From contig JAPLZT010000017.1 in the NCBI GenBank assembly GCA_026394855.1, positions 1 to 17,806 on the forward strand: a stretch of 17,806 bases of DNA. The letters run 5' to 3'. The position numbers and the translations under genes are program-made. Shown piece after piece: positions 2,235 through 14,589 of this stretch. The stretch's first letter is position 1. The number at the start of each line of letters is the position of its first letter. The DNA comes from Candidatus Woesebacteria bacterium (GTDB taxonomy: Bacteria > Patescibacteriota > Microgenomatia > UBA8517). The notes beneath the pieces are model-generated. The model worked only from the letters and a program-made list of their open reading frames with translations, was not told the DNA's origin and searched no databases.

Positions 2235-2262
2235 TTGACAAGAGCTATAAAAAACATATATT
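2235..2262 (+). promoter_or_regulatory. Sigma-70-type promoter, leaderless geometry, for the gene at 2269
   Basis: A perfect -35 TTGACA (2235-2240), a 16-bp spacer and a -10 TATATT (2257-2262, 5 of 6). Six bases then separate the -10 from the ATG at 2269, so the predicted +1 is the A of the start codon. No SD exists. Confidence 0.75.
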
Positions 2263-2268
2263 GAATAT

Positions 2269-2590
2269 ATGACTCAGCTTACAAAAGAAGATCTGAAACT
2301 GGTACTAAAAGAGGTCGGTGTAGTCACCAAAGACAATTTAAAACCAATTTTAAAAGAATTTGGTGTGGTTACAAAGAACGATCTCAAAGAAATGGGAGTC
2401 GTAACTGAAAAGACTCTTAAAAGGGAACTTGTAGGACTTGTAACCGAAAAGGCGCTCAAAAGGGAACTTAATAAAACTACAAGAAAACTTCAAGAAGCTA
2501 TAGCTAATGTAGCATTAAACTCACCAACTATATAATCAATTTAATGAACTCGAAAAGAGAGTATCCAGTTTTGAAGCTTTTGCAAATTAG
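2269..2590 (+). pseudogene. VVTK-repeat coiled-coil protein, apparently frameshifted near its 3' end
   Basis: The first frame gives 88 aa (2269-2535): MTQLTKEDLKLVLKEVGVV and onward, with four to five copies of a degenerate unit GVVTK-x-x-LK-x-x-LKE spaced 11-17 residues apart and then a helical tail (RELNKTTRKLQEAIANVA). Such units are common in short helical proteins of CPR bacteria, and their function is not known. The frame closes at TAA 2533-2535, but the next frame from about 2519 reads HQLYNQFNELEKRVSSFEAFAN to a TAG at 2588-2590. That looks like the missing amphipathic heptad-rich C-terminus. I infer a single-base loss or gain between about 2500 and 2521. It could be a real decay event, an assembly error, or a programmed shift. 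Translation probably starts on a leaderless transcript. Confidence 0.7.
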
Positions 2591-2606
2591 TTCAACCTCC
2601 GACCAA

Positions 2607-2622
2607 GTTGCAAAACTTGACC
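2607..2622 (+). repeat. 16-bp direct repeat GTTGCAAAACTTGACC, left copy flanking hicBA
   Basis: Identical to 3121-3136, and 15 of the 16 bases recur at 7557-7571. Here it overlaps an inverted repeat AAGTT-GCAA-AACTT (2605-2618), with another AAGTT at 2625-2629. It lies 36-51 bp before the hicB ATG, upstream of its -10. Confidence 0.85.
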
Positions 2623-2643
2623 CCAAGTTCGTTTACATTTTTG

Positions 2644-2652
2644 TGTTATACT
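2644..2652 (+). promoter_or_regulatory. Extended -10 promoter (TGTTATACT) for hicBA, leaderless geometry
   Basis: TGT followed by TATACT (2647-2652) is an extended -10 element. Exactly six bases separate it from the ATG at 2659, so the predicted +1 is the start codon. No convincing -35 lies 16-18 bp upstream; the extended TG may compensate. The repeat at 2607-2622 lies near the -35 region and could be an operator. Confidence 0.6.
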
Positions 2653-2658
2653 AATAAT

Positions 2659-2910
2659 ATGAAGATCAAAAATTATTCAGTGATTCTTAAGAAAGAACCG
2701 GAAGGTGGATATACGGCTATTGTACCGTCACTTCCCGGGTGTGTCACTTATGGTGAAAGTATAGAAAAAGCTCAAGAGATGGTTAAAGATGCAATCGAAT
2801 CTTACATGATTTCTTTTTTAAAGCATGGTGAAGAAATTCCCGAAGAAAGAAATGTATTTTTGACCTCAATTTCCGTTCAAAGCTCAGGTGTTTTCTTTGC
2901 TCATGCCTAA
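2659..2910 (+). CDS. hicB: HicB-family antitoxin (single-domain)
   Basis: This 83-aa protein starting at MKIKNYSVIL carries the HicB fold signature: GGYTAIVPSLPGCVTYGES followed by IEKAQEMVKDAIESYM. It is the partial RNase-H-like domain that neutralises HicA. I chose the ATG at 2659 over the in-frame start at 2608 because it begins right at the conserved first strand and matches an extended -10 promoter six bases upstream. The protein ends soon after the domain (ISVQSSGVFFAHA), so the C-terminal helix-turn-helix or ribbon-helix-helix DNA-binding domain of classical HicB is missing, and autoregulation may be indirect or absent. It is followed by hicA with an 8-bp overlap. The antitoxin-first order occurs in many HicBA loci. 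Confidence 0.9.
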   Translation: MKIKNYSVILKKEPEGGYTAIVPSLPGCVTYGESIEKAQEMVKDAIESYMISFLKHGEEIPEERNVFLTSISVQSSGVFFAHA

Positions 2911-3118
2911 ACTGCCTGCAATAAAACCGAGAATATTAATTAAAAGATTAAAAAAGGCTGGGTTTATTGAGGATCATCAATCCGGAAGTCATGTTGTTAT
3001 GTACCACCCTAAAACGGGAAGGAGAGCAATAATCCCATATCATTTTAGAGATATTCCCAAGGGAACATTAAATTCTCTTATTAAGGAAGCAGGGATATCA
3101 AAAGAGGAGATTTCATAG
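2903..3118 (+). CDS. hicA: HicA-family mRNA interferase toxin
   Basis: This 71-aa protein reads MPKLPAIKPRILIKRLKKAG and ends ...GTLNSLIKEAGISKEEIS. The family pattern is complete: the helix RILIKRLKKAGF, the QSGSHVVMYHP strand with the catalytic His at residue 30 (GSH), a basic turn GRRAIIPYH, and the C-terminal IPKGTLNSLIKEAGIS. HicA binds and cleaves mRNA in the cytoplasm and is held inactive by HicB. A GTG at 2888 is also in frame, but the ATG at 2903 starts at the usual position for the family and overlaps the hicB stop (ATGCCTAA), suggesting coupled translation. With hicB it forms a cassette bracketed by the 16-bp repeats at 2607 and 3121; the right copy begins two bases after its stop. 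Confidence 0.92.
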   Translation: MPKLPAIKPRILIKRLKKAGFIEDHQSGSHVVMYHPKTGRRAIIPYHFRDIPKGTLNSLIKEAGISKEEIS

Positions 3119-3120
3119 CT

Positions 3121-3136
3121 GTTGCAAAACTTGACC
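3121..3136 (+). repeat. 16-bp direct repeat GTTGCAAAACTTGACC, right copy flanking hicBA
   Basis: A perfect copy of 2607-2622, starting two bases after the hicA stop codon. The two copies enclose hicBA in a unit of about 530 bp. Confidence 0.85.
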
Positions 3137-3150
3137 TTTCAGCCTATGAT
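3122..3150 (+). promoter_or_regulatory. Promoter-like TTGCAA-N17-TATGAT with no obvious gene downstream
   Basis: The right repeat copy supplies TTGCAA (3122-3127), and TATGAT lies 17 bp downstream (3145-3150), the same arrangement as at 7557-7585. A transcript from here would meet only an eight-codon reading frame at 3173 and then run antisense to the 65-aa gene, towards the truncated decarboxylase gene. It may be an orphaned promoter. Confidence 0.4.
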
Positions 3151-3205
3151 TTTAACCAACACCTAACGATATGAGCAAAGATACTCCCCTCTTCTAAACC
3201 AAGGT

Positions 3206-3403
3206 TTATTTGATTGACTTTCCGATTACCATTGTTAAAATTTCTATTTTCCCTTCAAGTTTGCCAACCTTCTCCTTTAAATCAAAAATCTCCTTTAAGA
3301 TATGAGGGGGAAGTTCCGGGTGAGGCGGGTGCGGATGATTCTTTTTTGCCTCTTCTTCCAGTTCTTCTTTTTTAGGATATGGTTTAAATTTATTATTTAT
3401 CAT
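3206..3403 (-). CDS. Small His/Pro-rich, coiled-coil hypothetical protein (65 aa)
   Basis: I do not recognise a family. The protein has a charged N-terminus (KKEELEEEAKK), a His/Pro cluster at residues 22-34 (HPHPPHPELPPH, with His at 23, 25, 28 and 34) that could bind a metal or be an extended linker, and a C-terminal amphipathic helix at about 35-60 (ILKEIFDLKEKVGKLEGKIEIL) with heptad-like leucine spacing, probably an oligomerising coiled coil. It has no signal peptide and no Cys. Despite its size it is very probably a real gene, because a near-consensus promoter and a near-perfect SD (AAAGGAGGTGA) precede the ATG at proper spacing. It is transcribed away from the truncated decarboxylase gene, and its promoter lies in that gene's eroded 5' region. 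Confidence 0.8.
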   Translation of the reverse strand: MINNKFKPYPKKEELEEEAKKNHPHPPHPELPPHILKEIFDLKEKVGKLEGKIEILTMVIGKSIK

Positions 3404-3409
3404 AAATAA

Positions 3410-3420
3410 TCACCTCCTTT
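3410..3420 (-). promoter_or_regulatory. Near-perfect Shine-Dalgarno AAAGGAGGTGA for the 65-aa gene
   Basis: The minus strand reads AAAGGAGGTGA, six bases before the ATG at 3403. It is the strongest SD in the window and fixes both the start and the reality of this small gene. Confidence 0.9.
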
Positions 3421-3428
3421 CATTTTTT

Positions 3429-3457
3429 AATATATGGCAATGAAGGAAAAAGATCAA
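3429..3457 (-). promoter_or_regulatory. Sigma-70-type promoter TTGATC-N17-TATATT for the 65-aa gene
   Basis: On the minus strand, -35 TTGATC (3457-3452), a 17-bp spacer and -10 TATATT (3434-3429). The predicted +1 is near 3422, giving a leader of about 18 nt that contains the SD. It overlaps the still-open decarboxylase frame that begins at 3444. Confidence 0.65.
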
Positions 3458-4472
3458 GAGCTTTCTTAATTACCTTTGGGCTTCTAAGGAGATAGAAATA
3501 ATAAACCCGGTGAATGAGGCAATAGCGATGGGTATTGCCTCCGGATTTTACCTTGGGACCAAAAAAATTCCAGTTGTGGCTATTCAGAATTCGGGTTTGA
3601 TGAACACCCTTAACGCTTTAACGTCACTAAATCAAATTTATAAAATCCCAGTATTTTATTTGATTACTTGGAGGGGCGAAGGGGGTAAAGGCAAAGACGC
3701 TCCGGAGCACGATATTTTGGGGGAAAGTCTAAAGAGAATATTAATTACTTTTAAGATTCCCTATAAAATTATTGATGAAAAAGATTGGTCAAAACAAATA
3801 AACGATTTATCACTCTTAGCCCAGAGGACAAAAAGACCAGTAGCCTTGATTATTAGAAAAGATACTTTTTCAGCTTATGAGAAGAAGGAAGAGAAGGCCA
3901 AGGGTATCAAATTAATGACTAGAATAGAGGCTGTATCTATTGTTAAAGATACTATAGGTAGTACGGCTCTATATCTATCCAGCACTGGTTTCCCCACGCG
4001 AGACTCGTTTTCTGTTTGTGATACACCAGATTTTTATATGGTCGGTTCAATGGGGCACACCTTTGCCGTTGGGTTAGGTCTTTCACCCAATACGAATAAA
4101 AAAATAGTCATTTTGGAAGGAGACGGATCCATGTTTATGCATCTTGGCAGCCTTGCTTCATTTAGACCTAAAAGACATAAAAATATTATCTACATCGTTT
4201 TCGGTAACGAAAGCTATGAAAGTACTGGCGGACAGAGAATAACATTCAGCAATATTAAGATAGACAATTTGGTTAAGTTGTTTGGTTTTGAAAGTACCTT
4301 TTTTGTACAAGATAAGGCGAAATTAAAATTGGTGATGCAAGGAGTTCTTGAGAGCAAAGAAAGTCTTTTCATTTACATTCGAATAAAAAATGATATCAAA
4401 ACAATTTCTGGTAGGGTTACGGATAAACACACTACTGAGGAGATAAAAAATAGGTTTATGATCGCGATTTAA
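3444..4472 (+). pseudogene. Phosphonopyruvate/sulfopyruvate decarboxylase-like TPP enzyme, 5'-truncated
   Basis: Counting from the GTG at 3510, the protein has 320 aa. Family features are the activating Glu in NPVNEAIAMGIASGFYLGTKK (E3), QNSGL, TWRGEGG plus KDAPEH, and the C-terminal TPP/Mg motif GDGS (204-207) followed after 26 residues by Asn233 (VFGN), then STGGQ. This order fits phosphonopyruvate decarboxylase (Ppd, about 370-400 aa) and its sulfopyruvate decarboxylase relatives, cytoplasmic enzymes that decarboxylate a 3-substituted pyruvate to the aldehyde. The frame stays open back to 3444 and still reads like Ppd (SFLNYLWASKEIEIINP), but it lacks an ATG or GTG there and meets a stop at 3441. 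About 35-40 N-terminal residues of the PYR domain are therefore missing. It may be a recent pseudogene, or be translated from GTG 3510, where activity is doubtful. It meets the kinase gene tail to tail with a 17-bp overlap. Confidence 0.8.
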
Positions 4473-5490
4473 TGATTTCTCTGATAGATTTTTCATTAAT
4501 TAGATCCTGTTTTAATAATTGTTTGCCAGCCTTAATGATAATGTTGGAATATCGTCTTTTTATGTAAGGTGCTGGGGAGGCCCCCACGATGCGATACAGT
4601 AACGTACACCCGGCATATTTCCAGGCCCTTTCTCCAATATTTGCAGAAAATGTTAGGCCCCGAACATTTTCTAAATAGCGATTGTATATTTTTAATATTG
4701 AATCAACAGCTAAATCCTTTTGGGTGGATATCATAGCGAATAACACATAGTGCCCAATCATAAAACCCAAGTCGTATGCCGGATCACCCATGCCAGAGGT
4801 AAATTCAAAATCAACAACAGCGATATTCTTTTCAGGAAAGTATAAAATATTTTTAGGACAAAAATCCATGTGTACTAAGAGTTTGTGGGAGTGAGCAATA
4901 CCGTCTTCATAAATGTTTACTATCTCTTTCTTCAGATCTGATAAAGCCATATTTTTCAACAGATCTTTGGTTCTCAACGAAAGAAAAAAATTCCAATGTT
5001 CTATCTCTTCGGCTAAAGTTTTTCGAATAATTATATTTTTGTTAAATGTTGTTGAGTGCTGATAAGCTATATAGTCTCCAATATTTCCTGCAATTCCTTT
5101 ATTAAATATTCCACCCTCCAAGTCTTTCTGTAAAAATCCACTTGCACCTAAGTCACGCGTTATCAGGATGCTGTTAGACTTGTCAAACGACAGAATCTCA
5201 GGCAATATATGTAGATTTCTCTTATGAAAACAATCTTTAAGAGCAGTAATACTTCTATATTCAGATTCAATACGGTTCCTTTTGATTAGGGTCAAATCCT
5301 TACTTAATATATTTTTCTTTTTTGCTTCTTCTAAAGCTTGCTTTAAATAATATATAGAACCATCTTTAGCGCGGGCCCGATAAACATAATTCATGACACC
5401 CGTATTAATTGTGGAAATATTGGTTACACTCTTGCCTATCAGCTTTGAGAATATTGAGGTGTTTGCTTCCTTCAATATTATTCTAGCCAT
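4456..5490 (-). CDS. APH/choline-kinase superfamily small-molecule kinase (methylthioribose-kinase-like)
   Basis: This 344-aa protein has a protein-kinase-like APH fold: a glycine-poor nucleotide loop TINTGVMNYVYRA, the ATP-binding Lys50 in IYYLKQAL, a conserved Glu near 75-77 (NRIESEYRS), the Brenner motif HMDFCPKNIL (catalytic Asp209, Asn214) and the metal-binding DFE (227-229), followed by MGDPAYDLGF. The C-terminal helix AGCTLLYRIVGAS resembles 5-methylthioribose kinase, so a sugar or amino-alcohol hydroxyl is the likely phosphate acceptor. It starts one base after the stop of the Nudix gene and is third in an operon with it and a cytidylyltransferase. A kinase plus a cytidylyltransferase is the usual pair for making CDP-activated alcohols. 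The substrate is unknown; the decarboxylase next door suggests a C2 or C3 compound, which is inference only. Confidence 0.82.
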   Translation of the reverse strand: MARIILKEANTSIFSKLIGKSVTNISTINTGVMNYVYRARAKDGSIYYLKQALEEAKKKNILSKDLTLIKRNRIESEYRSITALKDCFHKRNLHILPEILSFDKSNSILITRDLGASGFLQKDLEGGIFNKGIAGNIGDYIAYQHSTTFNKNIIIRKTLAEEIEHWNFFLSLRTKDLLKNMALSDLKKEIVNIYEDGIAHSHKLLVHMDFCPKNILYFPEKNIAVVDFEFTSGMGDPAYDLGFMIGHYVLFAMISTQKDLAVDSILKIYNRYLENVRGLTFSANIGERAWKYAGCTLLYRIVGASPAPYIKRRYSNIIIKAGKQLLKQDLINEKSIREIIKSRS

Positions 5491-5491
5491 A

Positions 5492-6031
5492 TTATTTATT
5501 GAGCAAAAATAACGAAAGCGCTGCCAAAGTCGGAGCGTTTTTTATCTTATTATTTTTTACTAGTTCTTTTACTGTTTTTAACGGTAAAGAAATAACATTA
5601 AGATCCTTCTCGGTTGGCTCAAGTTTTTGTTTTCCTTTAACTAGATTGCTTCCCTTAAATATATATATTTTTTGTTCTAGAAAACCCGATGAGGTACAAG
5701 CTTCACCAAGGAAAGTAATACTACCTTTAAATCCAACCTCTTCTTCAAATTCTCTCTTGGCGGCGTCTTTAGGAGTTTCATTTTCTTCAACAAATCCTTG
5801 AGGAAATTCCAGAGAGCGTTCATCTAAGGCGTATCTATATTGTTCGACAAAAATGAGGTTTTTGTTAACTTGAGGTATTACAATAACTATGTCCCTTCTG
5901 TTGACAATCTCATATGAAGCGGCACTTCCATCTGGTTTTATGAAGCTATCTTTCCTTAAAATAAGCCACTTACTTTTATAGATTGTTTTTGTCGAAGTAA
6001 TTTTTGCTTTTTTCGAGATCGTATATGACAT
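5492..6031 (-). CDS. Nudix hydrolase, ADP-ribose-pyrophosphatase-like
   Basis: This 179-aa protein has a complete Nudix box at residues 79-101 (GFVEENETPKDAAKREFEEEVGF), matching GX5EX7REUXEEXGU. The preceding LEFPQG and the N-terminal beta-rich half (KWLILRKDSFIKPDG, IVIVIPQVNKNLIFVEQYRYAL) are typical of the ADP-ribose/NDP-sugar pyrophosphatase branch, which cuts NDP-X to NMP plus X-phosphate with Mg2+. It is the middle gene of a minus-strand operon: the cytidylyltransferase ends 9 bp before it and the kinase begins 1 bp after it. In that setting it may clear unwanted or excess nucleotide-activated product, or supply the phosphorylated precursor. No SD is visible, so translation is probably coupled. 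Confidence 0.9.
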   Translation of the reverse strand: MSYTISKKAKITSTKTIYKSKWLILRKDSFIKPDGSAASYEIVNRRDIVIVIPQVNKNLIFVEQYRYALDERSLEFPQGFVEENETPKDAAKREFEEEVGFKGSITFLGEACTSSGFLEQKIYIFKGSNLVKGKQKLEPTEKDLNVISLPLKTVKELVKNNKIKNAPTLAALSLFLLNK

Positions 6032-6040
6032 ACTGTGTAA

Positions 6041-6565
6041 TTACTCATATCCTATCATTTTTAAAAGGTTGGTGGTGGAGTTTCTCCTATTAATATTAAC
6101 TGCCAGTAACTTTATTCCTGCCTCATTCGCTAGATCTCTTTTTTGGTCAATCAGCGGGTTCCAGGACATAACTGCTAGTAAATCAGGGTTTAGCTCACGA
6201 TACCTTTTAATATAAATTTCTGGGTTTCCGCCACAAATTGGTATATCATCGTATCCAAACACAAAATTTACCGGTTGGAGTGCTGATAGGAAAGCGAGCC
6301 TGATTTCTAGAGGATTAAAGGGCCTGTTTGCGCCTTTACTAAGACGAGCGTATTCGTCTGTTTCAACGCCGACGAAAAGTAGATTTCCCGCTGATTTAGC
6401 CTGTGTGAGGTAGTCAATATGACCAATATGAACAATGTCAAAAACACCGGATGCTAAAACCACACGCAAGTCTTTCCCGCGGTTTTCCCTGATTCTCGAT
6501 ATCGCTTCTTGATAGTTTATTGTTTTACCCTCAATAAGGGTTTTTACATCGATTTCTGGTGACAT
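6041..6565 (-). CDS. Cytidylyltransferase-family nucleotidyltransferase (TagD/RfaE-C-like)
   Basis: This 174-aa protein carries the nucleotidyltransferase signature VVLASGVFDIVHIGHIDYL, with HIGH at residues 46-49, followed by GNLLFVGVETDEYARLSKG and the RPFNPLEIRLAFLSALQPVNFV motif. A C-terminal RRNSTTNLLKMI corresponds to the ISTT element of this superfamily. It transfers a nucleotide (CTP or ATP) onto a phosphorylated alcohol or sugar. Relatives include glycerol-3-phosphate cytidylyltransferase and the adenylyltransferase half of HldE; motif reading cannot choose between CTP and ATP. It is the first gene of the operon with the Nudix and kinase genes, and the kinase could provide its phosphorylated substrate. 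An N-terminal extension of about 30 residues precedes the core, and the start at 6565 has no clear SD. Confidence 0.87.
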   Translation of the reverse strand: MSPEIDVKTLIEGKTINYQEAISRIRENRGKDLRVVLASGVFDIVHIGHIDYLTQAKSAGNLLFVGVETDEYARLSKGANRPFNPLEIRLAFLSALQPVNFVFGYDDIPICGGNPEIYIKRYRELNPDLLAVMSWNPLIDQKRDLANEAGIKLLAVNINRRNSTTNLLKMIGYE

Positions 6566-6652
6566 ATTATTTGAGGGTATTCTCTCATATTGTGTCTAAA
6601 TTTCAAACTGTTAGTAAAAAGATGAGGGTTGGAGGACAAAATGTCCGAATAT

Positions 6653-6681
6653 TTGATTAATTTGTGTTCTTTTAGTATATT
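6653..6681 (+). promoter_or_regulatory. Sigma-70-type promoter TTGATT-N17-TATATT for the dehydrogenase at 6689
   Basis: -35 TTGATT (6653-6658), a 17-bp spacer and -10 TATATT (6676-6681). Seven bases separate the -10 from the ATG at 6689, so the transcript should begin at or one base before the start codon. This supports 6689 rather than 6629 as the start. Confidence 0.7.
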
Positions 6682-6688
6682 TCAATTC

Positions 6689-7534
6689 ATGAAAAAAATA
6701 GCGGTGATTGGTACGGGCATTATGGGTAGTGGCATTGCGAAGAATTTCCTTAAGAAAGGCTACAAAGTCTACATTTGGAACAGAAGCAAGAGCAGGCTTA
6801 AAAACTTAATAAAAATGGGCGGAGTTGCAACAAATAATCCATTTAAAGCGACTCAAAAAGCGGATATTGTTTTTGAAGTAACAGCCAATGATAAGTCATC
6901 AAAATTAGTTTGGACTGGCAAAGACGGGATTCTATCGGGAGCAGACTCCAAAAAGGTTTTTATAACCTGTGCCACACTATCGGTTTCTTGGACGGATAAA
7001 TTAACAAATATTTGCAAAAAGAAGGGATTAACTTTTTTTGACATGCCAATGACTGGTAGCAGAATTGGAGCTGAGTCAGGAAAATTAACTTTATTGGTTG
7101 GTGGAGATAAAAAGAAACTAGAAACGATTAAAAAGGATTTAGGTACTATAAGCGAAAAGATATTCTATTTCGGTAAAGGGGGTTCCGGAATGCGTTACAA
7201 GCTTCTCCTTAACACCCTTCAGGCAATACATATTATTGGACTTGGTGAAGTTTTAAACGTGGCTAAAAAAGCGGGATTAAATATTAAAGCCGTTGGAGAT
7301 GCATTAGCTGAAAGGCCTGGCGGTACAGCGACAAATCTTGCTTGGATAGGCTATCAAAAAGAACCCAACCCTACAAACTTTTCAGTTAAATTGATTACAA
7401 AAGATTTGATTTACGCAAAACAACTTGCAAAGGGACTAAAAAGCCCGCTTCTAGATAAGGTTTTAAAAAAATACAGAAGTGCAATAAGAAAAAATTTAGG
7501 GCAAAAAGACTGGACAGTGGTTAATAGAACTTGA
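6689..7534 (+). CDS. 3-hydroxyisobutyrate-dehydrogenase-type NAD(P)-dependent oxidoreductase
   Basis: From the ATG at 6689 this is 281 aa, close to the 285-300 of the beta-hydroxyacid dehydrogenase family. MKKIAVIGTGIMGSGIAKNF is the Rossmann dinucleotide motif (GTGIMG at 8-13), with NRS after the second strand (residues 31-33), where NADP-dependent members often carry Arg. PMTGSRIGAESGKLTLLVGG (120-139) is the substrate-binding signature, and Lys171 with Asn175 in RYKLLLN is the catalytic pair. Such enzymes reduce aldehydes or semialdehydes to alcohols or hydroxyacids, or the reverse; succinic semialdehyde and glyoxylate reductases belong here. Next to a Ppd-like decarboxylase it would be a natural consumer of the aldehyde product, but this is inference. 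The upstream in-frame start at 6629 would add 20 residues lacking family features and is rejected. Confidence 0.9.
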   Translation: MKKIAVIGTGIMGSGIAKNFLKKGYKVYIWNRSKSRLKNLIKMGGVATNNPFKATQKADIVFEVTANDKSSKLVWTGKDGILSGADSKKVFITCATLSVSWTDKLTNICKKKGLTFFDMPMTGSRIGAESGKLTLLVGGDKKKLETIKKDLGTISEKIFYFGKGGSGMRYKLLLNTLQAIHIIGLGEVLNVAKKAGLNIKAVGDALAERPGGTATNLAWIGYQKEPNPTNFSVKLITKDLIYAKQLAKGLKSPLLDKVLKKYRSAIRKNLGQKDWTVVNRT

Positions 7535-7556
7535 TTTTTCCCCACGTAGGTATAGT

Positions 7557-7571
7557 TTGCAAAACTTGACC
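7557..7571 (+). repeat. Third copy of the TTGCAAAACTTGACC element
   Basis: Fifteen bases identical to the repeats flanking hicBA. Here the first six bases act as a plausible -35. No further copy was seen on either strand. Confidence 0.85.
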
Positions 7572-7585
7572 TATAAACCTATAAT
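7557..7585 (+). promoter_or_regulatory. Promoter TTGCAA-N17-TATAAT for the 556-aa surface protein
   Basis: -35 TTGCAA (7557-7562), a 17-bp spacer and a perfect -10 TATAAT (7580-7585). The predicted +1 is near 7592, giving a leader of about 12-18 nt with no SD. Confidence 0.65.
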
Positions 7586-7603
7586 ACAAAGTGTACGCGG
7601 TGT

Positions 7604-9274
7604 ATGGATATGAAAGATAAAGAACCGAAGATTCATCCGTTGGTTAAGTTGGGTAGAGCTCTTGGCATAGTTGCCCTTGCTGTAGGCCAAGTTAGGTGCA
7701 ATCCGCCATCCGCAACACCCGAGGCAACTTCAACAGATTTCCCTTCCACCTTAACAGTTGAGCCCCCTGAGCCTTCTGTAGGATTTGAGCCGTTAACCCG
7801 AACTCCCGATGCCGTATATACACCAGCCGTAGAAACCCCAATACCCGCTGAATCAGGATTGGGCACGTTTCGTGCACCGACACTTGAACAGTTGGCCGTT
7901 CCTGTCGGGGAAGGCGGTCCCCTACCCGAATATGCCCAAAGCTATTACAATGTAATGGATCAAATAAAGATAAATGTTGCGCAAAAGGTTGGTGTTGATC
8001 CTAATAAAGTTGAGACCCGCTACTGGGATAATAAAGGCAGTCAGGATGCTTTCGGCTGGATGCTTTACTACAAAATAGACGGCGGAGGGGTGATATGGCC
8101 TCTTAAGCCTGATGGAGCCCTTGCCGACTACCCTGCATATTTTGAAGGCCAGGTTCAACCGGACGGATCTCTGGTAAACCTTAGAATTAATTCCGACTAC
8201 AATAATTGGGTAGTTGTAGGTGAAAATGCGGCCGCTATTTTTGGAGGAACTTTGCCTGTCATAGTTGACTCTCCTGTTGGTGGTATTTATTCAAGATGGT
8301 TTAGACCGGGTGGTCAACCGGAGGGTTATGCCCAAGAGTTCCTGCAATGGCAAATGACTCCAGGAGTTTCAATTCCACTTCCTGAAGGTCTATCAAATCT
8401 TCCCGATGGCTTTGTCCCTGTACGCAATGAAGATAACACTTGGGGAATAGGAAGAGAAGTAAACGGAGAGACAGTAGAAATTCCGGGAATTGCCTTTAGT
8501 GAAAACAAATTTATGTTGAATTTAGGCGATGGAGAAACTCTTGACATAACCGACGACATAAATGCAATTAAAATTGTAGACCATCCATCAGGCGCAGAGA
8601 TAATAGATATGGGTGAGCGGACGGGCTTTGTCTGGAAAGGGGATAAATGGGCCGAAATTTTACTGCAAATTAAATTTGAAACAGACGGGACAAAATTCAA
8701 TGAATTTCCAGTAGTAAATTATGAGGATGTTACCTCCGGAGCTTTAGCTGAATCCGAACGCCTAGCAACCCAGCCTTTTCCAGAAGGCGTAGAACCAGTG
8801 AATAATTATTATTACGATTCAAATTATGGCACGATATACCCCAATTATGATCCACAAATAGGTTATGAGTTTTCCATTCATCTTGAAAAATTTCCAATGC
8901 GTTATGTATATTTCTATCAAACAAAAATCGGAGACGTTCCTGTGGTAATGGCAACTTTACAGGTATTAAATAAGGATAATTCTTCTGTATTTATTCATAT
9001 AGTTGAAAGTCGAGATTTTCTTGAAAGTCAAAAGAATTGGTGGACCAACAATATTCAATTACGACGTAGACCTGTTTTTGGTTTAGCACTTGGCGGTACC
9101 GAATATAACTACTGCGAGGATGGGTGGTCAGAAGCAGCAAAACAAGTGTGCGGTTTGAACGCTCCCCATAAAGCTTATTTGCAGGAATTATCGCAGAAAT
9201 GGATAACAGAACAAAAAATACCTGAAGAGCTTGAAGGGGTTTTATTTACACTTCAAAGTGGAAGATGGTATTAG
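7604..9274 (+). CDS. Large exported or membrane-anchored protein of unknown function (556 aa)
   Basis: The N-terminus has a basic stretch and a short hydrophobic core (LVKLGRALGIVALAVGQV), then a Cys at 32 and a Pro/Thr/Ser/Glu-rich linker to about residue 85. That is the layout of a lipoprotein or signal-peptide protein with an extended cell-wall spacer. The residues before the Cys (QVR) do not fit a standard lipobox, so lipidation is doubtful. The rest is a roughly 470-residue ectodomain rich in Tyr, Trp and Gly, with beta-strand-like segments (RYWDNKGSQDAFGWMLYYKIDG, GDGETLDITDDINAIKIVD) and only two further Cys (NYCED and KQVCGL) near the end, likely a disulfide. I recognise no domain. 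It has its own promoter built on the TTGCAAAACTTGACC element and is followed by two more exported proteins. Two ATGs compete as the start (7604, 7610). Confidence 0.8.
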   Translation: MDMKDKEPKIHPLVKLGRALGIVALAVGQVRCNPPSATPEATSTDFPSTLTVEPPEPSVGFEPLTRTPDAVYTPAVETPIPAESGLGTFRAPTLEQLAVPVGEGGPLPEYAQSYYNVMDQIKINVAQKVGVDPNKVETRYWDNKGSQDAFGWMLYYKIDGGGVIWPLKPDGALADYPAYFEGQVQPDGSLVNLRINSDYNNWVVVGENAAAIFGGTLPVIVDSPVGGIYSRWFRPGGQPEGYAQEFLQWQMTPGVSIPLPEGLSNLPDGFVPVRNEDNTWGIGREVNGETVEIPGIAFSENKFMLNLGDGETLDITDDINAIKIVDHPSGAEIIDMGERTGFVWKGDKWAEILLQIKFETDGTKFNEFPVVNYEDVTSGALAESERLATQPFPEGVEPVNNYYYDSNYGTIYPNYDPQIGYEFSIHLEKFPMRYVYFYQTKIGDVPVVMATLQVLNKDNSSVFIHIVESRDFLESQKNWWTNNIQLRRRPVFGLALGGTEYNYCEDGWSEAAKQVCGLNAPHKAYLQELSQKWITEQKIPEELEGVLFTLQSGRWY

Positions 9275-9324
9275 TACTCCCCTAGAGTTTTATTAAAAAA
9301 AGTGCTAGGCTAAAGTTTAGGCAT

Positions 9325-9612
9325 ATGTCTAAACGGATTATCTTCATTTTCGTGATTATTTCTTTTGTTTTGACATTATTGATTGGCGGAGGGCTGTATT
9401 GGCTGAAAAAACTGGAAAAGAAAGAAAACGGTATTGGCAGCGATAAAATCGAAGTAAGTAACATAACGTGCGATCTTAACGGTAAAACATATCAACAGGG
9501 TGAAAATTTTTTGTTTCGTTTGAATTCAGAGTGCAGTAATTGTGTTTGTAGCAGAAACGGGATTGTAACATGCGAGAAAGCTAATTGTCCTGAAGGATCA
9601 CTAAATGAATAA
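9325..9612 (+). CDS. Membrane-anchored mini-protein with a VWC-like Cys-rich domain (95 aa)
   Basis: Residues 4-26 (RIIFIFVIISFVLTLLIGGGLYW) form one transmembrane helix, followed by a charged linker and a compact Cys domain from about 45 to 90: ITCDLNGKTYQQGENF, SECSNCVCSRNG, IVTCEKANCPE. The spacing C...NG..Y..GE.F......C..C.C..NG.V.C....C (Cys 49, 70, 73, 75, 83, 88) is the pattern of the first half of a von Willebrand factor type C / chordin-like domain, known best from extracellular animal proteins. In the predicted topology the domain lies outside the cell. The gene overlaps the next (686-aa Cys-rich secreted protein) by 8 bp, so the two are co-translated and may act together. A weak -10 (TAAAGT, 9311-9316) lies 8 bp before the ATG. 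Confidence 0.82.
   Translation: MSKRIIFIFVIISFVLTLLIGGGLYWLKKLEKKENGIGSDKIEVSNITCDLNGKTYQQGENFLFRLNSECSNCVCSRNGIVTCEKANCPEGSLNE
9593..9597 (+). promoter_or_regulatory. Shine-Dalgarno AAGGA for the 686-aa protein
   Basis: AAGGA, seven bases before the ATG at 9605, inside the last codons of the preceding gene. It supports the overlapping start. Confidence 0.6.
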
Positions 9613-11665
9613 AAAATTGAAACTATTAATTATTGGTCTAACGTTTGGTTTGCTGACATTCTTAAATAGTGGATCGGAAAACGCCAAAGTAATGGCAACA
9701 GATTGTTGCAACAATAATCAGTGCGTTGCTATTTATGGCGCGTCTTATTTTTGTAACGGAGTCGGAGTTCCCTGTCCTCCTAACACAGGGACCTGTAAAG
9801 TTACCACTACAGACCCTTATAATTACTGTACAAGTTGGACTGACTGGGGTAATTGTCATCCAGAGGGGAGTGGGTGCCTTGAAACCCGATATTGCCAAGC
9901 GCCGTCCTGGATGACATATTATTATCAAATCAGGGCGTGCACTTGTCCTCCGCCGGTGTGTAATCCGGGGGCGACGACTTGCGGGGCGTGTTCGGGTGGA
10001 GTGCGGAGTTGTACCAATGGCTGCGATACTTGGAATGACTACAATTGCGCTACACCGCCGCCTACGCCCACTCCTACTTGTACTCCCACCTGCACTGCTA
10101 ATTTAGGTTGTGGTTGTCATGACGCAAGTTGTAATGGAGGAACAGCTTATCCTGCTCCTTACTGTACTAACAATGGTTGTGGTTGTACTCCAACTTGTAG
10201 TGGAGGATCAGGTCCTGCTCCTTACTGTACTAACAATGGTTGTGGTTGTACTCCAACTTGTAGTGGAGGATCAGGTCCTGCTCCCAGCTGCACTGCTAAT
10301 TCAGGTTGTGGTTGTCATGACGCAAGTTGTAATGGAGGAACAGCTTATCCCGGTCCCTCCTGCACTGCTAATTCAGGTTGTGGTTGTCATGACGCAGATT
10401 GTAATGGAGGAACAGCTTATCCTGGTCCCCGCTGTACTGCTAATTTAGGTTGTGGTTGCCATGACGCAAGCTGTACCGGAGGAACAGCTTATCCTGCTCC
10501 ATCATGTTCCCATATATGCGGTTGCTCTTCCATAAATTGCAGTGGAGGAATAGGTTATCCTGATCCTTACTGTAAAAGCAGCTGTACATATGGTTGTTCT
10601 TCCACAAGCTGTAGTGGAGGAGTGTGCGGCATCCCTTCCTGCACTCTTAGTATTAATCCTGCGGGAAGCATAATGGTTCATGGAGATACCGGATCATTTA
10701 CTGCTTCTGTATCCAATATTGCATATGGTATAGTCTCCAATGTTTCTTTTTCTTCAAGTAATACCGGTATTGTTAGTATAAGTCCTGCATCAGACTCGTC
10801 TTCTCCCTATATAACTTCCGCAACTGCAGTTTTTCCGGGGACAGCTATATTGACCGCTTCGGCAACTATGAATGGGGAAGCCGTGAGATGTTCGAATATT
10901 TTAAATATAACAGTTAATCCCAGGGGTCCCTGGTGGCAGGTTGTTGATGCCGATGTTCAAACAAAAGAAAGTTTAAATTCGGACGTTCCGCCAACCCTTT
11001 ATTTTGGCCTTCCCGGCCTGGGGGGATTTCCCGGAGTTGCCAAATACGGAGGGTCAACTTCTCTTTCCTCGGGAAATGTATCAGCCATGCACTGGTTGGC
11101 AAATTCTTCGTATTCTCCACCTAACAACAAGGTTCAAGACTACGCATATTTCAGAAGACTTATACCTGAAGGTGTTCTACAGCCAATTCCATCAAGTAGT
11201 GTTATTGGGTCATGTTCACCTTCTTCAGATGGGTATTGCTGGTATGAATATGATGGATCAACAACCGGACTTCCCTTTAGAATAACCTCTGATATCAGTT
11301 TGACTGATGGAAAGAAAGTGGTACTTTTTGTAAAAGGGGCCGATTTAAATATTGAAGGAAAGATAACTTACACTTCAGGAAAAAGCATTTTTGTGGCTTT
11401 GGTTGATAAAAATATAAATATTAGTTCTGATGACTTAATGGGTTTTTTCCTTGCCGACGAAAACATATCCACAGGAATTTCTGCAAATCCACTTCATCTT
11501 AAGGGATCTGTAGCGGCTTTAGGAGGCTTTAATCTTCAAAGAAATTTGGTTTCTTTAAATCTGACGAAAGCTTCCGAGGTATTTGAATATGATCCTGCCA
11601 GTGCCTTTCTTTTTCCGCCAAAACTCTCCATGGAAAAGACAAGATGGAAGGAAGTGGCACCATAA
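9605..11665 (+). CDS. Secreted Cys-repeat surface protein with Ig-like and C-terminal domains (686 aa)
   Basis: Residues 1-31 are a signal peptide (KKLKLLIIGLTFGLLTFL ... AKVMA). Next comes a Cys-rich, aromatic region (to about 150), a Pro/Thr linker (PPPTPTPTCTPT), then eight tandem 21-24-residue units (162-345), each starting with Cys and carrying a GCGC-x-x-x-x-C-x-GG core and a PAP/PGP end. From 346 to about 440 there is a beta-sandwich resembling a bacterial Ig-like (BIG2-type) domain: SINPAGSIMVHGDTGSFTAS, VSFSSSNTGIVSIS, GTAILTASA. The last roughly 245 residues begin PWWQVVDADVQTKESLNSDV and end in SMEKTRWKEVAP, a tail I associate with large exported proteins of Microgenomates, of unknown function. 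It is probably displayed on the cell surface and stabilised by many disulfides. The stop is 17 bp from the convergent phosphatase gene. Confidence 0.85.
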   Translation: MNKKLKLLIIGLTFGLLTFLNSGSENAKVMATDCCNNNQCVAIYGASYFCNGVGVPCPPNTGTCKVTTTDPYNYCTSWTDWGNCHPEGSGCLETRYCQAPSWMTYYYQIRACTCPPPVCNPGATTCGACSGGVRSCTNGCDTWNDYNCATPPPTPTPTCTPTCTANLGCGCHDASCNGGTAYPAPYCTNNGCGCTPTCSGGSGPAPYCTNNGCGCTPTCSGGSGPAPSCTANSGCGCHDASCNGGTAYPGPSCTANSGCGCHDADCNGGTAYPGPRCTANLGCGCHDASCTGGTAYPAPSCSHICGCSSINCSGGIGYPDPYCKSSCTYGCSSTSCSGGVCGIPSCTLSINPAGSIMVHGDTGSFTASVSNIAYGIVSNVSFSSSNTGIVSISPASDSSSPYITSATAVFPGTAILTASATMNGEAVRCSNILNITVNPRGPWWQVVDADVQTKESLNSDVPPTLYFGLPGLGGFPGVAKYGGSTSLSSGNVSAMHWLANSSYSPPNNKVQDYAYFRRLIPEGVLQPIPSSSVIGSCSPSSDGYCWYEYDGSTTGLPFRITSDISLTDGKKVVLFVKGADLNIEGKITYTSGKSIFVALVDKNINISSDDLMGFFLADENISTGISANPLHLKGSVAALGGFNLQRNLVSLNLTKASEVFEYDPASAFLFPPKLSMEKTRWKEVAP
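10091..10639 (+). repeat. In-frame tandem repeat, eight units of 63-72 bp, coding for the Cys repeats
   Basis: Unit borders fall at 10091, 10163, 10226, 10289, 10361, 10433, 10505 and 10571, with lengths 72, 63, 63, 72, 72, 72, 66 and 69 bp. Units 2 and 3 are nearly identical in DNA (63 bp), and units 1, 4, 5 and 6 are close copies, which implies recent duplication. Units 7 and 8 have diverged. All length differences are multiples of three, so the frame is preserved. Confidence 0.92.
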
Positions 11666-11682
11666 ACGGAACAATTAATCAT

Positions 11683-12306
11683 TTAAATGTGAGAAGTATC
11701 ATTCCAGTTGACAAGAGTCCATCCCCATCTGTCTGTATACTCACAAACTGTAATTCCGGTATTTTTAAGCCATAAATGTTCCCTTAATTGTAAAAATATT
11801 TCCGGAGTTAAACTTTTCCCGAATATTGCTTTACAGACGATCATTTTTATCATGGTTGCGTGGGATATGCATAAAACGTTTTGCTCTTTGTGATGCAAAA
11901 GTAGATGTTCAAGCACTCCTTCTGCTCTTCTATTTAATTCTTCAAAAGTTTCTTCATCCGAATAACGCCCATCTCCTTTGATAAATTTATTTCTGGCTAA
12001 TTCCTTAATTTTTAAGATCCTTTCGTCTTCTGCCGGTTTTCCCCAGATTTCACTCGGATTTCGTATTTCTTTCAAATTTTCCCAGGACTCAACAGGAATT
12101 TTTAACTGATCGGAGATTATTTCCGCTGTTTGCTTTGCCCTGACCATTGAGCTTGAATAGATAACGTCGATTCTGTGTTTTTTAAGTCTTTCAGCAAGAA
12201 CCTGACCCTGTTTAACTCCTTCTTCGGAAAGGGGAACCTCAGGGCCTTGATGGAGCCCTTTTTTATTTCCTTCAGATTCCCCGTGTCTTATAAAATAAAT
12301 TATCAT
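11683..12306 (-). CDS. Histidine phosphatase superfamily protein (phosphoglycerate-mutase-like)
   Basis: From the ATG at 12306 this is 207 aa. MIIYFIRHGESEGN carries the catalytic RHG (His8), IYSSSMVRAKQTAEII has the conserved phosphate-pocket Arg, an acid residue follows in ENLKEIRNPSEIWG, and NVLCISHATMIKM supplies the second catalytic His. These are the branch-1 features of cofactor-dependent phosphoglycerate mutases and broad phosphatases such as CobC/PhoE-like enzymes, which pass a phosphate through a phospho-His. The length fits a small-molecule phosphatase rather than a glycolytic mutase (about 230-250 aa). A TTG at 12312 would add two residues and is less likely. It is divergent from another histidine phosphatase 46 bp away and convergent with the 686-aa gene. 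Confidence 0.92.
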   Translation of the reverse strand: MIIYFIRHGESEGNKKGLHQGPEVPLSEEGVKQGQVLAERLKKHRIDVIYSSSMVRAKQTAEIISDQLKIPVESWENLKEIRNPSEIWGKPAEDERILKIKELARNKFIKGDGRYSDEETFEELNRRAEGVLEHLLLHHKEQNVLCISHATMIKMIVCKAIFGKSLTPEIFLQLREHLWLKNTGITVCEYTDRWGWTLVNWNDTSHI

Positions 12307-12317
12307 TTTCAAACCTA

Positions 12318-12346
12318 ATATTATCTTAGATATATGTTAAACTCAA
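12318..12346 (-). promoter_or_regulatory. Weak promoter TTGAGT-N17-TAATAT for the minus-strand phosphatase
   Basis: On the minus strand, -35 TTGAGT (12346-12341), a 17-bp spacer and -10 TAATAT (12323-12318). The predicted +1 is near 12311, a leader of about 5 nt before ATG 12306. It overlaps the -10 proposed for the divergent gene. Confidence 0.4.
12335..12343 (+). promoter_or_regulatory. Possible extended -10 (TGTTAAACT) for the phosphatase at 12353
   Basis: TGT plus TAAACT (12338-12343) lies nine bases before the ATG. It resembles the hicB extended -10 (TGTTATACT). No clear -35. Confidence 0.4.
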
Positions 12347-12352
12347 ATCGAA

Positions 12353-12958
12353 ATGAATACTTTTTATTTAATCAGACATGGTCAGAAAGTGACAGAAGCC
12401 GGAGACCCCGGGCTTACTGAATTAGGAGGACAGCAGTCAAGAAAAACTGCAGAGTTTTTAAAAGATAAAAATATTTTAAAAATTTATTCCAGTACTTTTG
12501 CAAGAGCCTGGGAAACCACAGAAATTATTAATGAAATACTAAAAGTCGGAGTTATTTTTGATGATAGATTAAGAGAAAAAATGAATTGGGGTTCAATTCC
12601 TAACCAAACACTTAAAGAATTTTTGAAAGAATGGGAATATTCAAATCTTCATAGAGATTTTAAACCTAAAGCAGGCATTTCTTCATTACAATCAGGTCAA
12701 GATGTTTTTAATGTGATATCTGAGATATCAGTCTCTCTCCCCGACTCCAATATTGTAATAGTTACCCATGGCGGGGTTATCTGTGATTTGTTAAGAAATT
12801 TGTTTTCGGATGACGAACTTAGAGAATTTAAACAAGATTTTCCTGAACTACTAGATAAATTAATTAAAGAGTGTTCGATAACTACTTTAGTATACGAGAA
12901 TAATAAATTTAAATTAGGAGAAATTAGTTCAACTAAACATTTAAGTCTGATTAATTAA
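12353..12958 (+). CDS. Histidine phosphatase superfamily protein, second copy
   Basis: This 201-aa protein begins MNTFYLIRHGQKV (catalytic His9), followed by LTELGGQQSRKTAEFL, IYSSTFARAWETTEII (phosphate-pocket Arg), DDRLREKMNWGS (acid residue region) and NIVIVTHGGVICDLL (second His). It is clearly a homologue of the divergent 207-aa phosphatase but shares little beyond the motifs, so it is probably not a recent duplicate. RHGQKV rather than RHGESE places it nearer to SixA/PhoE-type or RNase-H-phosphatase-like proteins, with the substrate unknown. No SD precedes the ATG, only a possible -10. It ends 8 bp inside the convergent GNAT gene. Confidence 0.9.
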   Translation: MNTFYLIRHGQKVTEAGDPGLTELGGQQSRKTAEFLKDKNILKIYSSTFARAWETTEIINEILKVGVIFDDRLREKMNWGSIPNQTLKEFLKEWEYSNLHRDFKPKAGISSLQSGQDVFNVISEISVSLPDSNIVIVTHGGVICDLLRNLFSDDELREFKQDFPELLDKLIKECSITTLVYENNKFKLGEISSTKHLSLIN

Positions 12959-13514
12959 CCTTAATATTTTTATACATTTGAGTATCGTCAACTAATTTTC
13001 CCTTGTATAAATTTCCCTTTGGTAGTTTTCCGTATTCAATAAACCCAAAATCTTTATACATTTTTATTGCTTTTTCGTTTTCTGCAAAAACTTCAAGTGT
13101 TACTATCTTAAGTTTCATTAGGTTTTTAGAGGCTTCTTCCAAAGTAAGTTTCATCAAGAGTTTCCCAAAACCTCTTCCACGATATATTTGGGCAATCGTA
13201 ATCCCGAAAACTCCTATATGGCATTTAATTCTTTCGCCAAGGTCAATTGCAGAAATTCCCGAAAGTTCACCATTTACAAATAAAAGTAACTGTACAGTTT
13301 CTTTTTCCCCTATTCTTTTAAGCTGATTTTTAAGATATTTCTGTTCATGTTTTAGGGATATTTCTTCACCCTGCCAGGTTATGTAAGTTTTCTCTTTTGA
13401 AATTGCGTTTATGTATTTGAGCATAGCCTCAACATCTCCGTTTTGAGGATATCTAATAACTACTTCGGAATTTCCAATGTTGTTGCAATAGACGACATTA
13501 TTTGATTTATACAT
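12951..13514 (-). CDS. GNAT-family N-acetyltransferase
   Basis: This 187-aa protein has the GNAT core: N-terminal VVIRYPQNGDVEAMLKYIN, strand LLLFVNGELSGISAIDL, and motif A GITIAQIYRGRGFGKLLM with the acetyl-CoA pyrophosphate loop R-G-R-G-F-G at 112-117. Motif B is LEVFAENEKAIKMYKDFGFIEYGKLPKG, the usual NxxAixlYxxxGF end. It would transfer acetyl from acetyl-CoA to an amine. The closeness to RimJ/RimL-like and amino-acid or diamine acetyltransferases leaves the substrate open. About 17 residues precede the core, and no later in-frame ATG fits better. A perfect extended -10 (TGATATAAT) lies nine bases before the ATG. The gene is divergent from the GrpB-HAD fusion and overlaps the histidine phosphatase 3' end by 8 bp. 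Confidence 0.92.
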   Translation of the reverse strand: MYKSNNVVYCNNIGNSEVVIRYPQNGDVEAMLKYINAISKEKTYITWQGEEISLKHEQKYLKNQLKRIGEKETVQLLLFVNGELSGISAIDLGERIKCHIGVFGITIAQIYRGRGFGKLLMKLTLEEASKNLMKLKIVTLEVFAENEKAIKMYKDFGFIEYGKLPKGNLYKGKLVDDTQMYKNIKVN

Positions 13515-13523
13515 AATGCCTAG

Positions 13524-13532
13524 ATTATATCA
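13524..13532 (-). promoter_or_regulatory. Extended -10 promoter TGATATAAT for the GNAT gene
   Basis: The minus strand reads TGA then a perfect TATAAT (13529-13524), nine bases before the ATG at 13514. A leader of about 3 nt is predicted. Any -35 would fall at about 13547-13552, on top of the divergent gene's -10. Confidence 0.6.
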
Positions 13533-13545
13533 GACTCATTGGTCG

Positions 13546-13554
13546 TGCTAAAAT
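13546..13554 (+). promoter_or_regulatory. Extended -10 promoter TGCTAAAAT, leaderless geometry, for the gene at 13561
   Basis: TGC plus TAAAAT (13549-13554, 5 of 6) is followed by exactly six bases and then ATG 13561. The predicted +1 is the start codon. No SD and no strong -35. Confidence 0.6.
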
Positions 13555-13560
13555 TGAAGT

Positions 13561-14589
13561 ATGCTCACAAAAGATGAATTGGATTTCTTAAATAAAATTC
13601 CAGCTGATAAGAAAGTTAATTTTCATTCATTCGATCCAAAAGTTGTCAGGATGGCAGAAGATCTAATTCAATCAATAAGTAATATCTTTCCGGATCTGGA
13701 AGTTAAACACATGGGAGCATCAGCTTTAGGAATTTCGGGACAAAACGACATTGATATTTACGCTTTTTCAGAACCAAAAGATTTTGAGAAGTTCCTTCCT
13801 GGTTTGGTTAAACTTTTCGAGAAGCCACTCCACAGACACGAAACTTTCATTGAATGGAAATTTAAGAGAGAGGAATTTGATGTCGAATTTTACTTGACCA
13901 CCAAAGATTCAAAAACAATGAAAAAGCAACTTATGGTTTTTCAAACACTCAAAAACAACAAGGATTTACTTAAGGAGTACGAGAAATTAAAAGAATCCAT
14001 GAATGAAAAATCCTTTAGGGAATACCAAGAGAAAAAGTACGAGTTCTACCACAGGATTTTAGACAATAAAATTAAGGCAATTATATTTGATCTGGTCGGT
14101 GTATTGGTACTTAAAAAAGAAGGTTTTATTGCAACTTCACCTGATGAAATTAATGCTCAAAATATCGAGAAAGAAAAACTTAACTTAAGCGATGGAGAAA
14201 TTAAGAAAGCTCTTCCGTATATCCCAACAAAATTTGAAAGGTTTGAAAAGCTCTGGGAAATTCTTTCTGATCTTAAAAAACAATATAAACTAGCAGTTAT
14301 AAATAACGGCAATTCAATAGCTTTAAGATACTGGAAAGAAAAGTTTGATTTTGGTATTTTTAATTTATATATTAATTCAGGTGAGATAGGACTTAGAAAA
14401 CCGGACCCAAAAATATATTTACTTACTTGCAAGAAATTAGACGTAAAACCTGAAGAATGTCTATTTATGGATGACTCCTTAGAAAATATTGAAGCAGCAA
14501 AGAAATTGGGAATGAAAACTATATGGTGGAATAAAGGCGAGAACAAAGAGAAATTGTTAACTGAATTTAAAAAACTGGTAAATAGCTAA
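13561..14589 (+). CDS. GrpB-type nucleotidyltransferase-like domain fused to a HAD hydrolase (342 aa)
   Basis: Residues about 20-168 resemble the GrpB/UPF0157 family of the nucleotidyltransferase superfamily: VKHMGASALGISGQNDIDIYAF (48-69) corresponds to the family's H-x-GST-A-V-x-G-L-x-x-K-x-x-I-D-I motif with Asp63 and Asp65, and the tail EYEKLKESMNEKSFREYQEKKYEFYHRIL is the usual GrpB C-terminal helix. Residues 170-342 are a HAD subfamily IA hydrolase: motif 1 FDLVGVL (nucleophile Asp177, but Val at 179 where the second Asp usually stands), motif 2 INN (248-249), motif 3 Lys280 in RKPDP, and motif 4 MDDSLENI (Asp304, Asp305). The missing second Asp occurs in some YihX-like members. The fusion suggests linked nucleotidyl transfer and phosphate removal. 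The next gene starts one base after its stop. Confidence 0.85.
   Translation: MLTKDELDFLNKIPADKKVNFHSFDPKVVRMAEDLIQSISNIFPDLEVKHMGASALGISGQNDIDIYAFSEPKDFEKFLPGLVKLFEKPLHRHETFIEWKFKREEFDVEFYLTTKDSKTMKKQLMVFQTLKNNKDLLKEYEKLKESMNEKSFREYQEKKYEFYHRILDNKIKAIIFDLVGVLVLKKEGFIATSPDEINAQNIEKEKLNLSDGEIKKALPYIPTKFERFEKLWEILSDLKKQYKLAVINNGNSIALRYWKEKFDFGIFNLYINSGEIGLRKPDPKIYLLTCKKLDVKPEECLFMDDSLENIEAAKKLGMKTIWWNKGENKEKLLTEFKKLVNS

Follow-up and report, generated by a model that had tools for sequence, protein, structure and literature searches.

In Deinococcus-Thermus, PMC12340547 describes sigma-A -10 elements adjacent to the open reading frame (ORF) that give rise to leaderless messenger RNA (mRNA), for about 30% of ORFs on average and alongside genes that carry a Shine-Dalgarno (SD) sequence; the domain-wide scan described there left out symbiotic and not clearly classified species. 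Zheng et al. 2011 (PMC3160421) recognised leaderless genes by a TANNNT motif some 12 bp ahead of the start and put their share at more than 20% in Actinobacteria and Deinococcus-Thermus; "candidate division", "TM7" and "uncultured" are terms absent from its main text. In mycobacteria, RNA-seq, ribosome profiling and N-terminal peptides have shown leaderless mRNAs that start at the start codon, lack an SD and have a -10 hexamer resembling the one found at leadered genes (PMC4633059). A comparable layout is described here for a contig of 17,806 nucleotides (JAPLZT010000017.1, contig C111 of our set) from a Candidatus Woesebacteria bacterium, a member of the Patescibacteria; the whole of this stretch is called the window below. 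Several of its genes carry TATAAT-like -10 boxes a few nucleotides (nt) before the ATG, and we put at about 0.82 the probability that these are ordinary sigma-A promoters placed beside start codons, from which leaderless or near-leaderless mRNAs would be made.

The Patescibacteria make up a very large and mostly uncultured share of bacterial diversity, in which, to our knowledge, the start of translation is little known. If leaderless starts were common among them, gene finders that seek an SD would misplace starts, small ribosomes would routinely have to handle 5'-terminal AUGs, and the view of leaderless initiation as an old and widespread mode would gain another deep lineage. A search of the open-licence literature, supplements excluded, found no report of leaderless mRNA in Patescibacteria, which is not proof of its absence; at each of its occurrences, the word "leaderless" concerns YchF in PMC12641178, denotes streptococcal peptides in PMC13361665 and stands solely in reference titles in PMC6851277, PMC10434106 and PMC7441243.

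Distance between the -10 box and the start codon

The genome comprises 835,613 bases on 159 contigs and is 90.45% complete. The sample drawn from it holds the window and 80 further contigs (81/159, 24 entirely masked), which leaves 454,963 bases, window sites included. Genes were called with a home-made caller by coding score alone, no upstream motif being used; at window starts this caller placed HicB at 2680 and missed HicA, and some starts were missed or shifted. First genes were defined by at least 35 nt of upstream space, and a strict box by at least five of six matches to TATAAT with T1, A2 and T6 fixed, its background being the mean per position at 16-47 nt.

Before the first genes of this genome, the strict box stands at exactly 6 nt 21 times, for a mean of 2.2 per position, and at 5-11 nt it precedes 66 of the 233 genes, where 15.1 boxes would be expected. 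A de novo motif search on the same operon-first genes returned TAtAAT with its mode at 6 nt and no SD motif among the best motifs printed. SD 5-mers stand before 15 of the 233 first genes, for 6 in a control window, and before 16 of 198 internal ones, for 11 in the control; AGGAGN4-8ATG shows no excess in this genome (76 vs 85 for its control). The adjacent box is the commonest start signal detectable before the operon-first genes. The initial annotation had named a genome-wide distance peak beforehand as the test of its proposal, and this peak appears as a sharp mode at 6 nt both in the 455 kilobases sampled and in relatives. A matrix for TGnTAtAAT, trained on other genomes (among them a Woesebacteria genome, G286) and set to a threshold that 1.5% of background positions pass, matches 91/233 first genes (23.4 expected), 32/45 genes with 21-34-nt gaps (4.5 expected) and 59/198 genes at most 20 nt from the upstream gene (19.9 expected).

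In the window itself, this matrix finds a site 5-11 nt upstream of 9 of 22 starts, for 2.2 expected (binomial p = 1.5e-4, an after-the-fact value, since the initial annotation had already chosen this window). Not counted among the 22 starts are two genes truncated at the ends of the window and the one at 3510, which begins with GTG; one start that is counted (2897) lies 6 nt from the true HicA start, 2903. Two of the nine matches (14591, 15097) follow another gene by just 1-2 nt and could have arisen by chance. The -10 boxes of the ATGs at 2269, 2659, 6689 and 13561, the -35 elements of the first and third and the extended TG of the second and fourth are all where the initial annotation had placed them (Table 1). 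The box of 2269 is the weakest of that set (p = 0.038 on the matrix) and leans on a perfect TTGACA. An SD is absent at 2269, 2659, 6689 and 13561, again as first described, and also at 12353 and 13514; one is present at 3403.

Probable promoter character of the boxes

The adjacent boxes were pooled from four sample groups, 248 in all: 66 from this genome, 57 from Woesebacteria, 61 from the class and 64 from other classes. A TTGACA-like element (at least four of six matches) lies at a spacer of 17 bp in 47 of them; the counts at spacers 16 and 18 are 16 and 18, and 6-19 at every other spacer between 6 and 40. Of the 248 adjacent boxes, 110 carry the extended motif TGn; the share is 17% for 307 boxes lying 20-59 nt upstream and 5.8% for 4944 intragenic boxes. 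At -1, a pyrimidine precedes the ATG in 79% of the 117 genes whose box lies at 6 nt, vs 60% of 1005 unboxed genes; for boxes at 6-7 nt taken together the pyrimidine count is 127/174 (p = 7e-4). Boxed genes also start with ATG more often (231/248 vs 491/592, p = 5e-5) and have an SD in 3/248 cases vs 88/592 for unboxed genes.

Stretches resembling TATAAT might also act in translation, as an AT-rich enhancer or an S1 site; PMC5397173 and PMC9581028 consider AT-rich non-SD signals near starts in Bacteroidetes and further groups. A peak is also found in those genes of this genome that lie at most 20 nt from the upstream gene (38 boxes vs 7.7 expected), which would suit such a role. A translation signal would not, however, be expected to carry a -35 element at 17 bp, a TGn or a pyrimidine at -1, and we regard this explanation as very improbable. 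The statistics of the boxes and their surroundings thus support their identification as sigma-A promoters, as the initial annotation had proposed for sigma-70-type polymerase: the -35 spacing of 17 bp, the TGn, the pyrimidine at -1 and the spacing kept in an orthologue (see below) all point the same way.

Over a stretch of 39 residues, which we take to be the region reading the -10 and the extended -10, the primary sigma factor of this genome is identical to the solved SigA (8x6f). An unusual sigma factor as the cause of the layout is unsupported for the primary sigma, given this identity; a second sigma70 region 2 match lies on contig C88. Nor is there support for a lost anti-SD as the origin of the layout: the candidate motif GGATCACCTCCTTT is present in this genome, on contig C143, and an exact copy is found in 42 of 59 class genomes, this one included, the other 17 having no exact match. 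As a separate observation on ribosomal RNA, an ORF-bearing insert splits a 16S gene near CACACCGCC (L052, about 4168-4995, contig C51; also in L082). The ORF of the insert, presumably LAGLIDADG-like, begins MITPDYINGLTEGEGCF and lies on a different contig from GGATCACCTCCTTT.

Predicted start of transcription and translation

Bacterial transcription usually starts some 7 nt downstream of the -10; for a box at 6 nt, the usual start point therefore falls on the A of the ATG. From the layout we infer both the start of transcription and the mode of translation start. With boxes 5-8 nt away, a polymerase starting about 7 nt past the -10 would have the mRNA begin at the A of the ATG, and with boxes 9-11 nt away about 3-5 nt before it. 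As such an mRNA would begin at or near the ATG, it would have no room for an SD, and its translation would presumably depend on ribosomes that accept an AUG lying at the 5' end or beside it. Each gene with a box at 6 nt is a direct and testable prediction of a 5' end.

Alternatively, the promoters may be real and the mRNAs mostly start 1-5 nt before the ATG, the ribosome reaching these very short leaders by another route, such as an AT-rich 5' end or S1. Beside its mode, the distance distribution shows a shoulder at 7-11 nt, and the genome encodes an S1-like protein (365-residue frame, E-value 1.1e-65, below the family cut-off, likewise in all 40 class genomes), both of which would agree with such leaders. 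The mode at exactly 6 nt, which puts the usual start on the A of the ATG, and the raised frequency of a pyrimidine at -1 behind 6-nt boxes speak against them, and we consider short leaders as the general rule possible, if rather unlikely. For the two window genes at 12353 and 13514, the 9-nt boxes of the initial annotation are present as described; a leader of about 3 nt fits them better than a strictly leaderless message.

A minority of genes have, by their sequence, a real leader with an SD. At 3403, the -10 box ends 25 nt before the ATG, which gives a leader of about 18-19 nt containing the SD AAGGAGGTGAT, in line with the initial annotation. Its view that the genome uses both modes of start holds, with the SD mode a small minority here.

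Conservation and breadth across the phylum

Among 30 pairs of genes from this genome and Woesebacteria (reciprocal-best, both first-like, with agreeing starts), eight have the box in both members (p = 0.007), 13561 being one of them. Upstream of 13561 the sequence reads TGC TAAAAT TGAAGT ATG and in its Woesebacteria orthologue TGT TAAAAT CAGATA ATG; the six intervening bases differ, and box and spacing are unchanged. For the protein of 13561, the nearest relative with a name comes from Candidatus Woesebacteria GW2011_GWF1_31_35 (69% identity, residues 1-169), which makes the organism a Patescibacterium and probably a member of the Microgenomates group; seven other window proteins have no relative in the loci compared.

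By strict box at 5-11 nt, 57/181 first-like genes are boxed in Woesebacteria G286 (14 expected) and 61/183 in the class sample (11 expected; its stretches L101 and L102 are masked by 40-48%). The figure for other classes, 64/243 (19 expected), is not an unbiased rate, because the stretches (L105, L106, L127-L138, L140-L146) were chosen partly for strong counts or known long contigs. In Escherichia coli MG1655 the box is found in 1/81 first-like genes (3 expected), and the held-out matrix likewise gives 1/81.

Counts made blind to genes, with the reversed pattern as control, extend this picture. TATAATN6ATG occurs 791 times vs 224 in 24 genomes of the same class and 6532 vs 2769 in 262 genomes of other classes, and matches exceed the control in 258 of these 286 genomes of the phylum. 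In the same 96 phylum genomes, the spacing N6 gives 1995 vs 922 reversed, and N14 gives 1076 vs 1139. Of three families summed, f21 has the strongest excess (642 vs 111); f20 (6 genomes) and f30 (13 genomes) have none (150 vs 162 and 316 vs 332), and their SD excess is small too, with ratios of 1.07 and 1.12. The ratio for AGGAGN4-8ATG is a modest 1.33 in the class and 2.05 in f21, so that strong use of the box and use of the SD can coexist. In the phylum of a Spirochaetales metagenome-assembled genome (G287), TATAATN6ATG reaches 9448 vs 6508 in 120 genomes, a ratio of 1.45 that shows the reversed control not to be neutral everywhere; as 14 of the 120 genomes have an excess of at least 3-fold, the layout may extend beyond the Patescibacteria, perhaps in a patchy way in that phylum.

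These controls bear on whether the boxes could be chance in AT-rich DNA, selected by eye. The weak box of 2269 and exact gene-blind counts near background in this genome would fit such an origin. It is contradicted by the genome-wide peak (66/233 genes, with a de novo motif whose mode is 6 nt), by the flat N14 spacing in 96 genomes and by the single boxed gene of E. coli; shuffles likewise speak against chance or AT-richness, which is left as scarcely credible.

Other observations weigh against sigma-A promoters at start codons as an account of this genome. Both strict signals, box and SD, are missing from 152 of the 233 first genes, and a box at 9-11 nt would still leave a short leader. That boxed genes nearly lack an SD is in part a matter of geometry, since the two elements would occupy overlapping positions. 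Gene-blind exact counts over the whole genome are 17 vs 13 for TATAATN6ATG and 215 vs 237 for TATAAT at 1-25 nt. Sharing between orthologues is non-significant in the class sample (2/7 pairs, p = 0.43), and a more distant relative of 13561 (L085) has no box. The plasmid MP1 of D. radiodurans, intended as positive control, was too thin, with 3/77 first-like genes boxed (0.2 expected) and no -10 motif from a de novo search.

Features of the window

Gene starts in the window are sound wherever protein families can judge, the Pfam matches beginning at residue 3 (6689), 4 (12353) and 6 (HicB, 2659). Rfam at curated thresholds and a search for transfer RNA returned no features in the window.

Table 1. 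Predicted promoter elements and genes of the window, with scores on the extended -10 matrix.
Feature	Position	Strand	Matrix score	Remarks
-35 TTGACA (6/6)	2235..2240	+		16-bp spacer to the 2257 box
-10 TATATT	2257..2262	+	0.1	6 nt upstream of ATG 2269
88-residue ORF, predicted leaderless	2269..2535	+		no Pfam match
Extended -10 TGT TATACT (hexamer 2647-2652)	2644..2652	+	9.3	6 nt to ATG 2659
HicB-like antitoxin, predicted leaderless, first gene of hicBA	2659..2910	+		PF15919, 4.5e-10
HicA-like toxin	2903..3118	+		PF07927, 4.1e-18 (on 2897-3118); 8-nt overlap with hicB
65-residue ORF, leadered contrast case	3206..3403	-		no Pfam match
SD AAGGAGGTGAT of the 3403 gene	3409..3419	-		read from sequence
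-10 TATATT	3429..3434	-		25 nt upstream of ATG 3403
-35 TTGATT	6653..6658	+		17-bp spacer to the 6676 box
-10 TATATT	6676..6681	+	4.7	7 nt upstream of ATG 6689
NAD-binding dehydrogenase, predicted leaderless	6689..7534	+		PF03446, 3.7e-38
-10-like TAAAGT	9311..9316	+		8 nt upstream of ATG 9325
-10-like TAATAT	12318..12323	-		11 nt upstream of ATG 12306; TTGAGT at 17 bp
Extended -10 TGT TAAACT (hexamer 12338-12343)	12335..12343	+	8.6	9 nt to ATG 12353
Histidine phosphatase, predicted near-leaderless	12353..12958	+		PF00300, 1.5e-27
GNAT acetyltransferase, predicted near-leaderless	12951..13514	-		PF00583, 2e-11
Extended -10 TGA TATAAT (hexamer 13524-13529)	13524..13532	-	9.9	9 nt to ATG 13514
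Extended -10 TGC TAAAAT (hexamer 13549-13554)	13546..13554	+	10.1	6 nt to ATG 13561
GrpB-like and HAD fusion protein, predicted leaderless	13561..14589	+		PF04229, PF00702

In each of the two divergent pairs 12306/12353 and 13514/13561, the start codons are 46 bp apart and a -10-like box is directed at either gene. In this genome, 21 of the 60 divergent pairs are separated by 20-79 bp, with matrix matches on both sides in 7 and on one side in 11; in Woesebacteria the same holds for 21 of 45, with matches on both sides in 10 and on one in 9 (G286 belonging to the training set). Divergent gaps have a median of 92 bp in this genome and 62 bp in Woesebacteria, but medians are larger for the 32 pairs of the class sample (245 bp), the 47 of other classes (184 bp) and the 20 of E. 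coli (199.5 bp), so that short gaps do not accompany the box layout everywhere.

A direct repeat of 16 bp, GTTGCAAAACTTGACC, lies at 2607-2622, 3121-3136 and 7556-7571 (third copy 94%). Two copies flank hicBA, 36 nt before hicB and 3 nt after hicA, and the third follows a further 4.4 kilobases on; the 14-base core has only these three occurrences in the genome, on the same strand, and occurs once each in 2/55 relatives. The repeats are possibly the borders of a cassette or insertion. The cluster at 3510-7534 holds a kinase of the APH family, a cytidylyltransferase-like protein and the dehydrogenase, all named by Pfam, with a thiamine-enzyme-like and a Nudix-like ORF recognised by reading the translations; a phosphonate or choline-type pathway is our guess. 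A cysteine-rich protein of 686 residues with internal repeats, again read from the translation, occupies 9605-11665. The protein of 13561-14589 combines its GrpB-like and HAD hydrolase parts in one chain, and the four loci found for it align to one half only, the first or the second.

Relation to known leaderless systems

The layout of the window is real and extends beyond it, and its mechanism is predicted to belong with that of known leaderless genes. In a broader form, for which we see even odds, transcription from the start codon would be the default for operon-first genes across most Patescibacteria, the anti-SD being kept and little used in some lineages; certain families would have lost or replaced the layout, and in some lineages, this one among them, it would also enable divergent genes to share intergenic regions of 20-80 bp.

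Leaderless genes with an adjacent -10 element are already established, and their predicted occurrence in Patescibacteria would be an addition to that class. As in the TA-led genes of Zheng et al. 2011 (PMC3160421, main text), a -10-like box lies close upstream of the start. By comparison with mycobacteria, the arrangement of a -10 without an SD is the same (PMC4633059), whereas leaderless status is here only predicted. The account of Deinococcus-Thermus in PMC12340547 is matched by a -10 directly before the start codon and by SD genes alongside; unlike those promoters, the boxes described here are often extended by TGn, are enriched for a -35 element at 17 bp and belong to a Patescibacterium.

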